In this document: piece after piece, positions 19,182 through 30,093 of the stretch
Numbering within the stretch: position 1 is the stretch's first letter
Layout of the letters: every line of letters starts with the position of its first letter
Origin: Syntrophus gentianae
GTDB lineage: Bacteria; Desulfobacterota; Syntrophia; Syntrophales; Syntrophaceae
Assembly: GCF_900109885.1 (NCBI RefSeq)
Contig: NZ_FOBS01000006.1
Coordinates: 124,001 to 188,000, forward strand
Direction of reading: 5' to 3'
DNA: 64,000 nt
The notes under the pieces: generated by a model
Databases searched by the model: none
What the model was told of the DNA's origin: nothing
Seen by the model: only the letters and a program-made list of their open reading frames with translations
Translations under genes and position numbers: made by a program

Positions 19182-24589
<5,408 letters not shown>

Positions 24590-24662: not shown

Positions 24663-24971
24663 TCAGGGTTTTGGAGAGGCCAACCCCAGTTTAATCATTT
24701 TTTTCTGGAATGTGTTTCGATTAATACCCAGATAAGCGGATGCCGCGCTTTTAACATGATGATTCCGCTGCAGAGCGATCCGAAACAGGCTGCGCTCCAC
24801 CATGGTCATGATGTCATCGTACAGGGTGCTTCGACCGGAGTCCGTAGACTCTAAAACCGTTGCCATATCTTCAAGTTGTTTCAGAAGGATTTTCTCAAGG
24901 ACAAAAGCGGGCGAGGAAGGGACTTCTTGATCGATTTCTGCAGCAAGATTCTGGCGGTCGGCACAATTCAT
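24663..24971 (-). CDS. Fis-family DNA-binding protein
   Basis: The C-terminal helix-turn-helix (KSAASAYLGINRNTFQKKMIKLGL) is of the Fis/NtrC type. The open frame starts further up at 25019, but the ATG at 24971 is preceded by AAAGGAGAGA and gives 102 residues, close to Fis itself (98). No AAA+ domain is present. It may be a nucleoid-type regulator. It lies 73 bp downstream from nothing but the GlmS-like start, on the same strand. Confidence 0.75.
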   Translation of the reverse strand: MNCADRQNLAAEIDQEVPSSPAFVLEKILLKQLEDMATVLESTDSGRSTLYDDIMTMVERSLFRIALQRNHHVKSAASAYLGINRNTFQKKMIKLGLASPKP

Positions 24972-25015
24972 GGGAAAATCTCTCTCCTTTCTGAAACAAA
25001 GAGGAAACAACGGGA

Positions 25016-25531
25016 TCAATAAAACAATTTGAAGATGATCAGAATCAGCATGACCAATGCAGCAATCCAGATCTTGATAATTTCGAAACGGTTTGCCTGG
25101 TGGAAGTCCATCTGCCGGCGAACTTCCTCTTCGACTTTATCCGGCTCGATCCGTTCGGCAATGTCCTGCAGAAGGTTTGTAAAATTCTCATAGCTATTGG
25201 AAATGCTGAAAAAGCCTTTCACCGTGGTCAGCAGCAGGTAAGTCCGCGAGCGAAGGACGAGAACCCCGACATTGGTAATCTCGGACCATTTCAGCTCCTT
25301 TCTGCGCAGGAGTTTTTCCAGCCGGATCCCCTGGGAATGAACGATAACCTTTCGTGACCAGAGTTCGAAGAAAACATAGATAGAAGGTATTAAAAAAACG
25401 GCCAGAACAATTCTTTCCAGGGATGATCCCCCCAGCAGAAAGGAAAGAGCAAAAAGGACGCATAGAAGGAGCACATCCACGCCGAGAGAGACGGCAAAAA
25501 GCTTCCGTATTGCATAAATCCTGTTTTCCAT
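25016..25531 (-). CDS. membrane protein with PH-like domain, unknown function
   Basis: 171 residues: two hydrophobic segments near the N-terminus (about 12-33 and 40-58), a soluble part with strand-rich sequence (IRLEKLLRRKELKWSEITNVGVL) resembling bacterial PH-like domains, and a last membrane segment (about 150-170). It lies just upstream of the Fis-like gene on the same strand (about 45 bp from its chosen start). No function can be given. Confidence 0.6.
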   Translation of the reverse strand: MENRIYAIRKLFAVSLGVDVLLLCVLFALSFLLGGSSLERIVLAVFLIPSIYVFFELWSRKVIVHSQGIRLEKLLRRKELKWSEITNVGVLVLRSRTYLLLTTVKGFFSISNSYENFTNLLQDIAERIEPDKVEEEVRRQMDFHQANRFEIIKIWIAALVMLILIIFKLFY

Positions 25532-28018: not shown

Positions 28019-28074
28019 TTTGCATCGCTTGACTTCGAAAAGAAATCGCGTAATTCATGAAGGAGACCGTATCT

Positions 28075-29151
28075 ATGGAGATTAAAGTGAATCCGGCGGC
28101 GCCGGAATCCAGAAAAGCGAAACCGTCTGATGAGGCGAAATTGGGATTCGGTAAGTTTTTTACCGATCATATGTTCACGATGACTTATTCTGCAAAGACG
28201 GGATGGGATTATGCGGAGATCGGTCCCTATCGACCTCTCTGTCTTGATCCGACCGCCATGTGTCTTCATTACGGACAGGAAATCTTTGAAGGGATGAAGG
28301 CCTATCGGGGAAAATCCGGTGAGATTTACCTGTTCCGTCCGCAGGAAAATATTCGGCGGATGAATAACTCGGCAACACGGCTCTGCATGCCGACCGTTGA
28401 TCCGGAGGTGTTCCAGGAGGCTGTCACCGAACTGGTTCTTCTCGAAAAAGACTGGATTCCCCATGGGCGGGGAACGTCTCTGTATATCCGGCCGACGATG
28501 ATCGCGACGGAAGCGGCGCTTGGTGTGCATCCCTCCAGCGAGTATCTCTTCTTCATCATCGTCGGACCCGTGGGGGCCTATTATCAAGAAGGCTTTAATC
28601 CGACGAAGATTTATGTCAGCGAGGAATATGTCCGCTCTGTGCGCGGCGGGACCGGGAACTGTAAGAATGCGGGGAATTACGCGGCCAGCCTTTATGCCAG
28701 TCAAATTGCCATGGGGATGGGGTATACCCAGGTTTTATGGCTGGACGCCATTGAAAAAAAATATGTTGAAGAGGTGGGAACCAGCAACATCTTTTTCCTG
28801 ATCGGCGATGAACTGGTGACCCCTCCCCTGGAGGGGACGATCCTGCCCGGCGTGACCAGGGACTCCGTCATCCAGATCGCCCGGCACTTGGGCAGAACCG
28901 TTTCGGAGCGACGAATTTCCATGGATGAAATCCTCCGCGCCGTCGAAGCCGGGACGCTCAGGGAAGTCTTTGCCTCGGGCACGGCTGCTGTCGTGTCTCC
29001 GGTCGGTCAGTTTTATTATCAGGGAAAGGAACATCTTGTTAACGACGGAAAGACGGGTGCCTTGACCAAACAACTTTATGAGGAAATTCTGAGTATTCAG
29101 TGTGGTGAACAAGAGGATCCTTTTGGATGGAGGATCAAAATTTCCGATTAG
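28075..29151 (+). CDS. ilvE: branched-chain amino acid aminotransferase (class IV PLP)
   Basis: Transfers the amino group between glutamate and the keto acids of valine, leucine and isoleucine. 358 residues, the longer bacterial/eukaryotic BCAT2-like subgroup. The PLP lysine is in GGTGNCKNAGNYAAS, and EVGTSNIFF and GTILPGVTRDSVI are the cofactor-phosphate segments. The ATG at 28075 follows GGAG by 10 bp; the upstream ATG at 28057 has no site. A sigma-70 promoter precedes it. Confidence 0.93.
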   Translation: MEIKVNPAAPESRKAKPSDEAKLGFGKFFTDHMFTMTYSAKTGWDYAEIGPYRPLCLDPTAMCLHYGQEIFEGMKAYRGKSGEIYLFRPQENIRRMNNSATRLCMPTVDPEVFQEAVTELVLLEKDWIPHGRGTSLYIRPTMIATEAALGVHPSSEYLFFIIVGPVGAYYQEGFNPTKIYVSEEYVRSVRGGTGNCKNAGNYAASLYASQIAMGMGYTQVLWLDAIEKKYVEEVGTSNIFFLIGDELVTPPLEGTILPGVTRDSVIQIARHLGRTVSERRISMDEILRAVEAGTLREVFASGTAAVVSPVGQFYYQGKEHLVNDGKTGALTKQLYEEILSIQCGEQEDPFGWRIKISD

Positions 29152-29168
29152 AGTTTGCCGAAGGGGCC

Positions 29169-29214
29169 TCATCCACAATCTTGTGGAAAAGCCTGTGGAT
29201 AAGATTGTTGATAA
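29169..29214. other. cluster of four DnaA boxes beside A+T-rich DNA, possible oriC
   Basis: Within 46 bp: TCATCCACA (29169-29177), TGTGGAAAA (29182-29190), a perfect TGTGGATAA (29194-29202, reverse of TTATCCACA) and TGTTGATAA (29206-29214, reverse of TTATCAACA). An A+T-rich tract of about 150 bp follows up to lolA. This is the look of a replication origin, but dnaA, dnaN and gyrB are not in the window, so a DnaA-titration or regulatory site is the alternative. Confidence 0.5.
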
Positions 29215-29367
29215 GTTGGGTAAGTCTGTAATTGTTACCAATATTGACCGACTTGCATAAGAATTAGGCAATATAAATTATAATGATATCAATAAGTTAA
29301 ACCTTTAGTGCTGAGATCCTTAAATAATTGCGGATTCCCGCTATATCAACAGGAATAAGGAATAAAG

Positions 29368-30093
29368 TTGGGTTTTTTTATGAATAGGGATTTGTCAAGA
29401 AAGAATAAAGGCCCTTTTAACCGATGGGCTTATGCCTTTGCTTTGCTGCTTATCTCCGTTTTTCTGCTCGGGTGGGCGGGGAGCCTCTGGGCGGGCGATG
29501 CCCCCTCCCTTTCCGCCGTAATCATCCGGATGCAGGAGGCCTATGAGCGGACCCGTGATCTGAAGGCGACCTTTGTCCAGGAAGTTTCCCTGAGATCCGT
29601 GGGAAAAACGGAGCGGGAAGAGGGGATTCTCTTTTTGAAGAACCCCCGGCGGATGCTGTGGGATTACCAGAAACCACAGGTCAAGAAACTGATCGTCAAT
29701 CCTCAGAAAGCCTGGCTCTATGTTCCCGGGGATTCCGTCGTTTATGTTCAGAACGCCGATGCGATTTTTAAATCGAAAATGGCGGTCCGTTTTCTCTCCG
29801 GCATGGGAAAACTCCGGGAAGATTTTCAGGTCAGCTTTGCGGAGCCGGGCGCCGTTGATCAGGAGGGCAACTATCGATTAAGGTTGATTCCCAAAGCGCC
29901 GGGATTGGGGACGGATCAGCTCAACCTGGTTGTAGACAGGAAGAGCTATCAAATTCTGGAGGGCAGTTTTACCGATCCTTACGGAAATGCGACTCGGATT
30001 CGTTTCCGTAATCTGCGAGTGAACAGTGGACTTTCCGATCGCATGTTCAACTTCAAGGCGCCGGCGGGGGTGGAGGTCTACAACATGCCTTGA
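29368..30093 (+). CDS. lolA: outer-membrane lipoprotein carrier protein
   Basis: Periplasmic chaperone that receives lipoproteins from LolCDE and takes them to the outer membrane. A signal peptide spans about residues 18-47 (hydrophobic LLLISVFLLGWAG, cleavage likely after SLWA). The mature part has the LolA hallmarks: VIIRMQEAYERTRDLKATFVQ near the start and LFLKNPRRMLWDYQKP. The TTG at 29368 has AAGG 7 bp before it; an in-frame ATG at 29380 is the other option. Confidence 0.88.
   Translation: MGFFMNRDLSRKNKGPFNRWAYAFALLLISVFLLGWAGSLWAGDAPSLSAVIIRMQEAYERTRDLKATFVQEVSLRSVGKTEREEGILFLKNPRRMLWDYQKPQVKKLIVNPQKAWLYVPGDSVVYVQNADAIFKSKMAVRFLSGMGKLREDFQVSFAEPGAVDQEGNYRLRLIPKAPGLGTDQLNLVVDRKSYQILEGSFTDPYGNATRIRFRNLRVNSGLSDRMFNFKAPAGVEVYNMP

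Follow-up and report, generated by a model that had tools for sequence, protein, structure and literature searches.

We report a conserved non-coding element of approximately 132 bp, located at positions 29169-29300 (+ strand) of a 64,000-bp stretch of the Syntrophus gentianae genome. This stretch, which we call the window, corresponds to bases 124001-188000 of contig C6 in a genome of 3.71 Mb and 71 contigs. That the element is conserved and lies outside the origin of replication is close to certain. Given the sites present in it, the element is likely to be bound by DnaA together with IHF and a Fis-like protein. By analogy with Escherichia coli, we lean slightly toward regarding it as a stand-alone site of DnaA control, similar in action to DARS2.

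The element consists of a core of DnaA boxes, a spacer, a Fis-type site and an IHF-type site. The first-pass annotation of this DNA proposed four DnaA boxes within 46 bp (29169-29214), one of them perfect and three near-perfect, and direct reading of their positions and strands confirms this. Box 1 (TCATCCACA, 29169-29177, + strand) faces box 2 (TTTTCCACA, 29182-29190, - strand), whose start lies 13 bp past the start of box 1. Box 3 (TTATCCACA, 29194-29202, - strand), the perfect one, follows 12 bp further and box 4 (TTATCAACA, 29206-29214, - strand) another 12 bp further. In terms of box starts, the geometry is thus + 13 - 12 - 12 -, followed by the Fis-type and then the IHF-type site. Alignments of the copies define a conserved spacer at 29215-29252 (+ strand), with a TAAGTC..TAATTGTTAC.. 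block. No known binding site is assigned to this spacer (TAAGTC..TAATTGTTACgATTTTATACC). The candidate Fis-type site, GCATAAGAATTAGGC (29255-29269, no strand assigned), lies 41 bp past the last box and inside a near-palindrome, TTGC...GGCAA, while the candidate IHF-type site, TATCAATAAGTTA (29287-29299, + strand), lies 73 bp past the last box. They match GNNYANNNNNTRNNC and WATCAANNNNTTR exactly, these consensuses being used as printed in published passages.

The number of DnaA boxes in the window as a whole is ordinary (13, versus 10.75 expected). Four boxes in 46 bp, on the other hand, have an analytic expectation of about 4e-7 per 64 kb and arose in 0 of 20,000 simulations, and this cluster is not due to chance. 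The A+T-rich tract of about 150 bp that had been noted beside the boxes is also real: positions 29215-29370 (156 bp) are 68% A+T, compared with 47.5% across the window, and this level is reached in 1.2% of 156-bp windows. The tract is the intergenic region between a gene for an ilvE-type branched-chain aminotransferase on the left (28057-29151, + strand; PF01063, E 9e-34) and lolA on the right (29380-30093, + strand; PF03548, E 3e-24; start codon assumed), and it contains the remainder of the conserved element. We rejected a structured RNA as an explanation, as positions 28900-29600 had no Rfam match at E-values up to 1.

Boxes beside A+T-rich DNA had suggested oriC to the first-pass annotation, which had remarked that dnaA is absent from the window. 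The remark was right: contig C4 holds the best dnaA match genome-wide, adjoined by a three-box cluster of its own. The oriC reading did not hold, in that GC skew and the position of dnaA place the origin elsewhere. The skew analysis that the annotation had proposed as a check revealed no skew minimum at the site: to the left and right of 29.2 kb alike, and across most of contig C6, skew is positive, with no switch in the window. Two of the sampled relatives are complete (G003 and G222), and in both the skew origin coincides with dnaA and the sites of the same kind are 0.86-1.27 Mb away. G003, a member of the same genus assembled into one contig of 3,179,300 bp, has a dnaA that starts at about base 509. 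We took 40 samples, each 20 kb long, along this contig. Their skew is mostly positive between 0 and approximately 1.7 Mb and negative over the remainder from 1.84 Mb, and we therefore place the origin of G003 near 0. Of its two copies, the orthologous one maps to 859 kb, about midway down the right arm, and the other to 1.906 Mb, approximately 1.27 Mb from the origin via the opposite arm. In G222, a single contig from a different family of the phylum, dnaA is at position 893, the copy is at 1.041 Mb and the skew switches between approximately 1.6 and 1.76 Mb. Finally, each of 12 samples from a 940-kb contig of G081 has negative or near-zero skew; on this contig dnaA maps to 922 kb and the site to 286 kb.

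We rejected oriC on the basis of skew and dnaA positions in these three relatives and in S. gentianae itself. An origin unlinked to dnaA, or an additional origin, might still be entertained, since the boxes adjoin A+T-rich DNA with an IHF site. Yet the skew of G003, G081 and G222 and the place of dnaA in them, the lack of a skew switch within the window and the existence of a separate box cluster on the dnaA-linked DNA of S. gentianae make this highly improbable. The element does resemble oriC in its DnaA boxes, IHF-type site and A+T-rich DNA, and also in that an inverted-plus-tandem triplet of boxes occurs in the dnaA-linked cluster of the same genomes. It differs from oriC in being away from the skew minimum and in the spacing of its head-to-head boxes, which is 11 bp in the dnaA-linked clusters of S. 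gentianae (G000:C4:9947-9978) and G081 (C1:923411-923442). These clusters offer a possible simple test of what the spacing encodes. With the profile of the element described below (R1), dnaA-adjacent box clusters score just 12-14 bits, as the boxes alone match. In 533 kb of S. gentianae DNA, we found three triplets of the form (+,-,-), or its mirror image, with a 12-bp tandem spacing and a head-to-head spacing of 11-15 bp: the element and its paralogue, with a spacing of 13 bp each, and the dnaA-linked cluster, with a spacing of 11 bp. The element is co-oriented with replication in both S. gentianae copies and in G003, G081 and G222. We dropped the idea that this orientation is constant, however, as the local skew is opposite in stretches of G095, G052 and G068, and two more cases are ambiguous.

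Conservation was examined within the genome, the class and the phylum. A second copy in S. gentianae (C1:90210-90311) is 75% identical, and the match extends beyond the boxes. By blastn, the element was found in 25 of 100 relatives, and the aligned copies share the boxes, the spacer, the near-palindrome and a second A+T-rich motif. From 24 copies we built the sequence-only profile R1, which in S. gentianae itself matches 29170-29301 (G000:C6:153170-153301) with an E-value of 8e-28. Within the class, R1 matches 126 of 127 genomes, or 91 of 92 if just the good genomes are counted, and every one of the 50 genera; the number of matches per genome is 1 to 4. The sole class genome without an element match in this search of 127 genomes (G113) also lacks a match to the Fis-like protein discussed below; the element and the gene for this protein are neighbors, so a single assembly gap could account for both absences. 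Matches to the pattern of the box array include records from Smithella, Syntrophaceae and Syntrophales. In a sample of the phylum, 118 of 345 genomes have R1 matches at an E-value of 0.01 or better. Subtracting 16 genomes of the same class leaves 102 of 329 genomes outside the class, with about 3 expected by chance at this threshold and with profile E-values that are rough; at 1e-5 or better, the number is 36 of 329.

To describe the architecture across the class, we used 61 copies chosen among those fetched, namely the best-scoring loci and four extra copies from the same genus. In at least 58 of these 61 copies (46 + 7 + 4 + 1), reverse boxes start 12 bp apart with a forward box ahead of them. 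In considering the protein sites, it is important to bear in mind that the copies are related rather than independent, and that the profile used to find them itself contains these columns. With this caveat, the Fis consensus is exact in 46 of the 61 copies and has one mismatch in 10 more (1.7% in shuffled copies), and it occupies one of two adjacent places in 57 of the 61. The IHF consensus is exact in 26 copies and has at most one mismatch in 36 (2.3% in shuffled copies), and in 35 of the 61 it starts 33 bp past the Fis start. Outside the class, and subject to the same caveat, the Fis consensus is exact at 10 of 14 loci and the IHF consensus has at most one mismatch at 10 of 14; these 14 loci come from 24 rows, minus one secondary reverse-strand match of L169. 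Certain copies outside the class have spacings that read as 14 and 11 bp, rather than 13 and 12.

The position of the element beside lolA raises the question of whether it is simply a regulatory region of lolA (or ilvE) under the control of DnaA, Fis and IHF. In the window lolA follows it directly, and among the best-scoring class loci it lies between ilvE and lolA homologues in 39 of 41 cases, the remaining two being cut off by the ends of contigs. However, neither homologue was found at any of the 14 loci outside the class, nor was ilvE or lolA found alongside the four extra copies from the same genus. In addition, we looked for a sigma-70-like promoter at 29100-29420 and found none. We thus regard regulation of lolA or ilvE as very unlikely, and rejected a lolA promoter in particular because copies at other places argue against it. 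From the loci outside the class and the same-genus extra copies that lack these neighbors, we infer that the element is portable, with a role not confined to lolA. The suggestion of the first-pass annotation that this might be a DnaA-regulated site therefore survives in part: a site outside the origin on which DnaA acts is favored, but it is larger than envisaged, since Fis- and IHF-type sites form part of it, and it is not specific to one promoter. A mobile or plasmid origin was also rejected, given the absence of a match in plasmid and phage records and the class-wide fixation of the locus.

Several further observations concern the neighborhoods of the copies. Copies outside the class adjoin mazG (L174, L179 and L180) or ogt (L174 and L175), as though another lineage had fixed the element at a different locus. 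Loci from other families (L015-L018, L026, L028, L029 and L033) carry two further conserved blocks: GATACnnnCACTTG, which precedes box 1 by about 10-25 bp, and GATATnAAC...AAAAAnTGTGCCA, which comes before lolA. The first of these is absent from Syntrophus itself. In G003, a glycogen debranching gene after lolA (C1, approximately 860.2-860.7 kb; L067:10208-10712) seems broken or shortened, with tblastn pieces corresponding to residues 1-101 and 252-325. Elsewhere in the window, positions 20804-24589 (- strand) contain a single ORF of 1261 aa that, by eye, looks like a protein of the glucosamine-fructose-6-phosphate aminotransferase type with long extra ends.

For comparison with E. coli, we examined two stretches of the K-12 genome: the bioD-uvrB interval, taken to hold DARS1, and the rppH-mutH interval, taken to hold DARS2, the site that recharges ADP-DnaA with the help of IHF and Fis. 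Both stretches have boxes in the arrangement + 14 - 12 -, and in the DARS2 stretch a pair of near-consensus IHF sites, separated by 3 bp, is followed by a Fis consensus. According to passages in the literature on these sites, DARS1 and DARS2 have in common boxes I-III with equal spacing, box I being opposite in direction to boxes II and III, and a head-to-head contact between DnaA molecules is a prominent feature of DARS (PMC4245941, PMC4585315, PMC5742627, PMC8682772). The same passages describe DARS2 as requiring its IHF and Fis sites, with IBS1-2 being the paired IHF sites, and DARS1 as having a short (~50 bp) regulatory region and releasing ADP without added factors (PMC4245941, PMC4585315, PMC5742627, PMC8682772).

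Like DARS2, our element is non-coding, is located off oriC within one replichore, has a first box that opposes a tandem pair 12 bp apart, and has IHF and Fis consensus sites beside this core. It differs from DARS2 in its head-to-head spacing (13 bp, rather than 14), in having a fourth, tandem box and in the order of its parts, which is core-Fis-IHF here and core-IHF-Fis in DARS2, where about 59 bp separate the core from the IHF pair and the Fis consensus comes after. With DARS1, the element shares the same type of inverted-plus-tandem box core, but in our element Fis- and IHF-type sites are conserved. Profile R1 had no match in the MG1655 stretches holding DARS1, DARS2 and datA, and no sequence homology to them was detected. 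Because the order and spacing differ and homology was not detected, we propose that the element works like DARS2, not that it is DARS2.

The presence of DnaA boxes and an IHF site off oriC would also fit datA, at which ATP-DnaA forms an IHF-dependent complex that promotes hydrolysis of the ATP, thereby inactivating DnaA once initiation has taken place. In datA, though, the passages cited indicate that the essential boxes flank the IHF site and that function involves IHF, not Fis (PMC4245941, PMC4585315, PMC5742627, PMC8682772). In our element, by contrast, all four boxes are to the left of 29287, on one side of the IHF-type site, and they form an inverted-plus-tandem core, an arrangement that did not occur among the DnaA boxes we found in the E. 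coli datA stretch. We therefore consider a datA-like function unlikely. Similarly unlikely, in our estimation, is a titration cluster, in which high-affinity boxes would just bind DnaA and thereby set its free level. Three or four good boxes in a tight array, and the 1 to 4 profile matches in each class genome, are what such a cluster might look like; however, titration has no need for a conserved spacer, for Fis- and IHF-type sites at fixed positions or for a strict 12-bp register. Inactivation and titration are the main rivals of DnaA recharging.

The window also encodes a Fis-like protein of 118 aa (24663-25019, - strand; PF02954, E 1e-8, residues 72-110). Its start is uncertain, and its relatives align from approximately residue 17. 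The best sequence match in the PDB is Fis, with a weak E-value of 0.003. Among NCBIfam models, NF002517 scores 44.4 bits (cut-off 122) and NF001659 scores 26.2 bits (cut-off 99), neither of which passes; the Fis-family model outscores that of NtrC (44 versus 30 bits), both being below their cut-offs. The predicted structural model, which is poor overall (mean pLDDT 65), has helices at residues 37-58, 65-85, 90-97 and 101-110, forming a long helix pair and a helix-turn-helix, and its best fold matches are Fis, with a weak E-value of 0.012. Together, sequence and model predict a small stand-alone protein with the C-terminal helix-turn-helix of Fis.

By E-value, relatives of this protein are present in 119 of 127 class genomes, with just a weak match in a 517-aa frame in G090. 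The profile search of the 127 genomes found no Fis-like match in seven class genomes that have the element. In many genomes the gene is about 4 kb from the element. Places for each of the two, apart from some lower-scoring ones, are listed in 118 genomes and for both in 110, leaving out G090 (weak and of NtrC length). In 65 of these 110 they share a contig, the distance between them being under 6 kb in 47, 6-12 kb in 14 and greater in 4. This nearness could merely reflect conserved local gene order. Outside the class, the Fis profile matched mostly long frames of NtrC size. Genes of the HU/IHF family are also present in S. gentianae; one of them resembles IHF-alpha most, but its score of 105 bits does not reach the curated cut-off of 120.

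Taking these observations together, the points in favor of a DARS2-like site are the head-to-head core and the fixed Fis- and IHF-type sites, kept class-wide at one locus, and the location of the site off the origin in G003, G081 and G222. On the other side, the consensus for Fis is a loose one, the palindrome might be the target of a different dimeric protein, and 25 of the 61 class copies match the IHF consensus poorly, with 2-3 mismatches. Because of the head-to-head core, we prefer recharging of ADP-DnaA as the best single mechanism, and put this at roughly an even chance. Under such a mechanism, DnaA molecules would meet head-to-head on boxes 1 and 2, and the tandem boxes would lengthen the DnaA oligomer. 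IHF and the Fis-like protein would then bend the DNA and remodel the DnaA complex, which would free ADP from ADP-DnaA and allow DnaA to reload with ATP. The reloaded DnaA could start a new round of replication at the dnaA-linked oriC.

Published passages treat the DARS2 core and Fis as restricted either to gamma-proteobacteria related to E. coli or to beta- and gamma-proteobacteria near E. coli (PMC4245941, PMC4585315, PMC5742627, PMC8682772). We found no paper in the open-licence literature on DARS-type sites in Desulfobacterota, and apparently none has been reported for this bacterial group. Slightly short of even, in our judgement, is the chance that a DARS-type DnaA-Fis-IHF module extends beyond the beta- and gamma-proteobacteria, being near-universal and fixed in position in a class of Desulfobacterota, present at other positions elsewhere in the phylum and accompanied by its own Fis-like protein.

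The element is a ready marker, as a single profile detects it in nearly every genome of the class. If the broader proposal is true, either the module is far older than has been thought, or a head-to-head core with Fis and IHF sites arose twice. The age and generality of DnaA recharging would then become directly testable by means of the anaerobic Desulfobacterota, and, for syntrophs that grow very slowly, there would be a known lever on the timing of replication.
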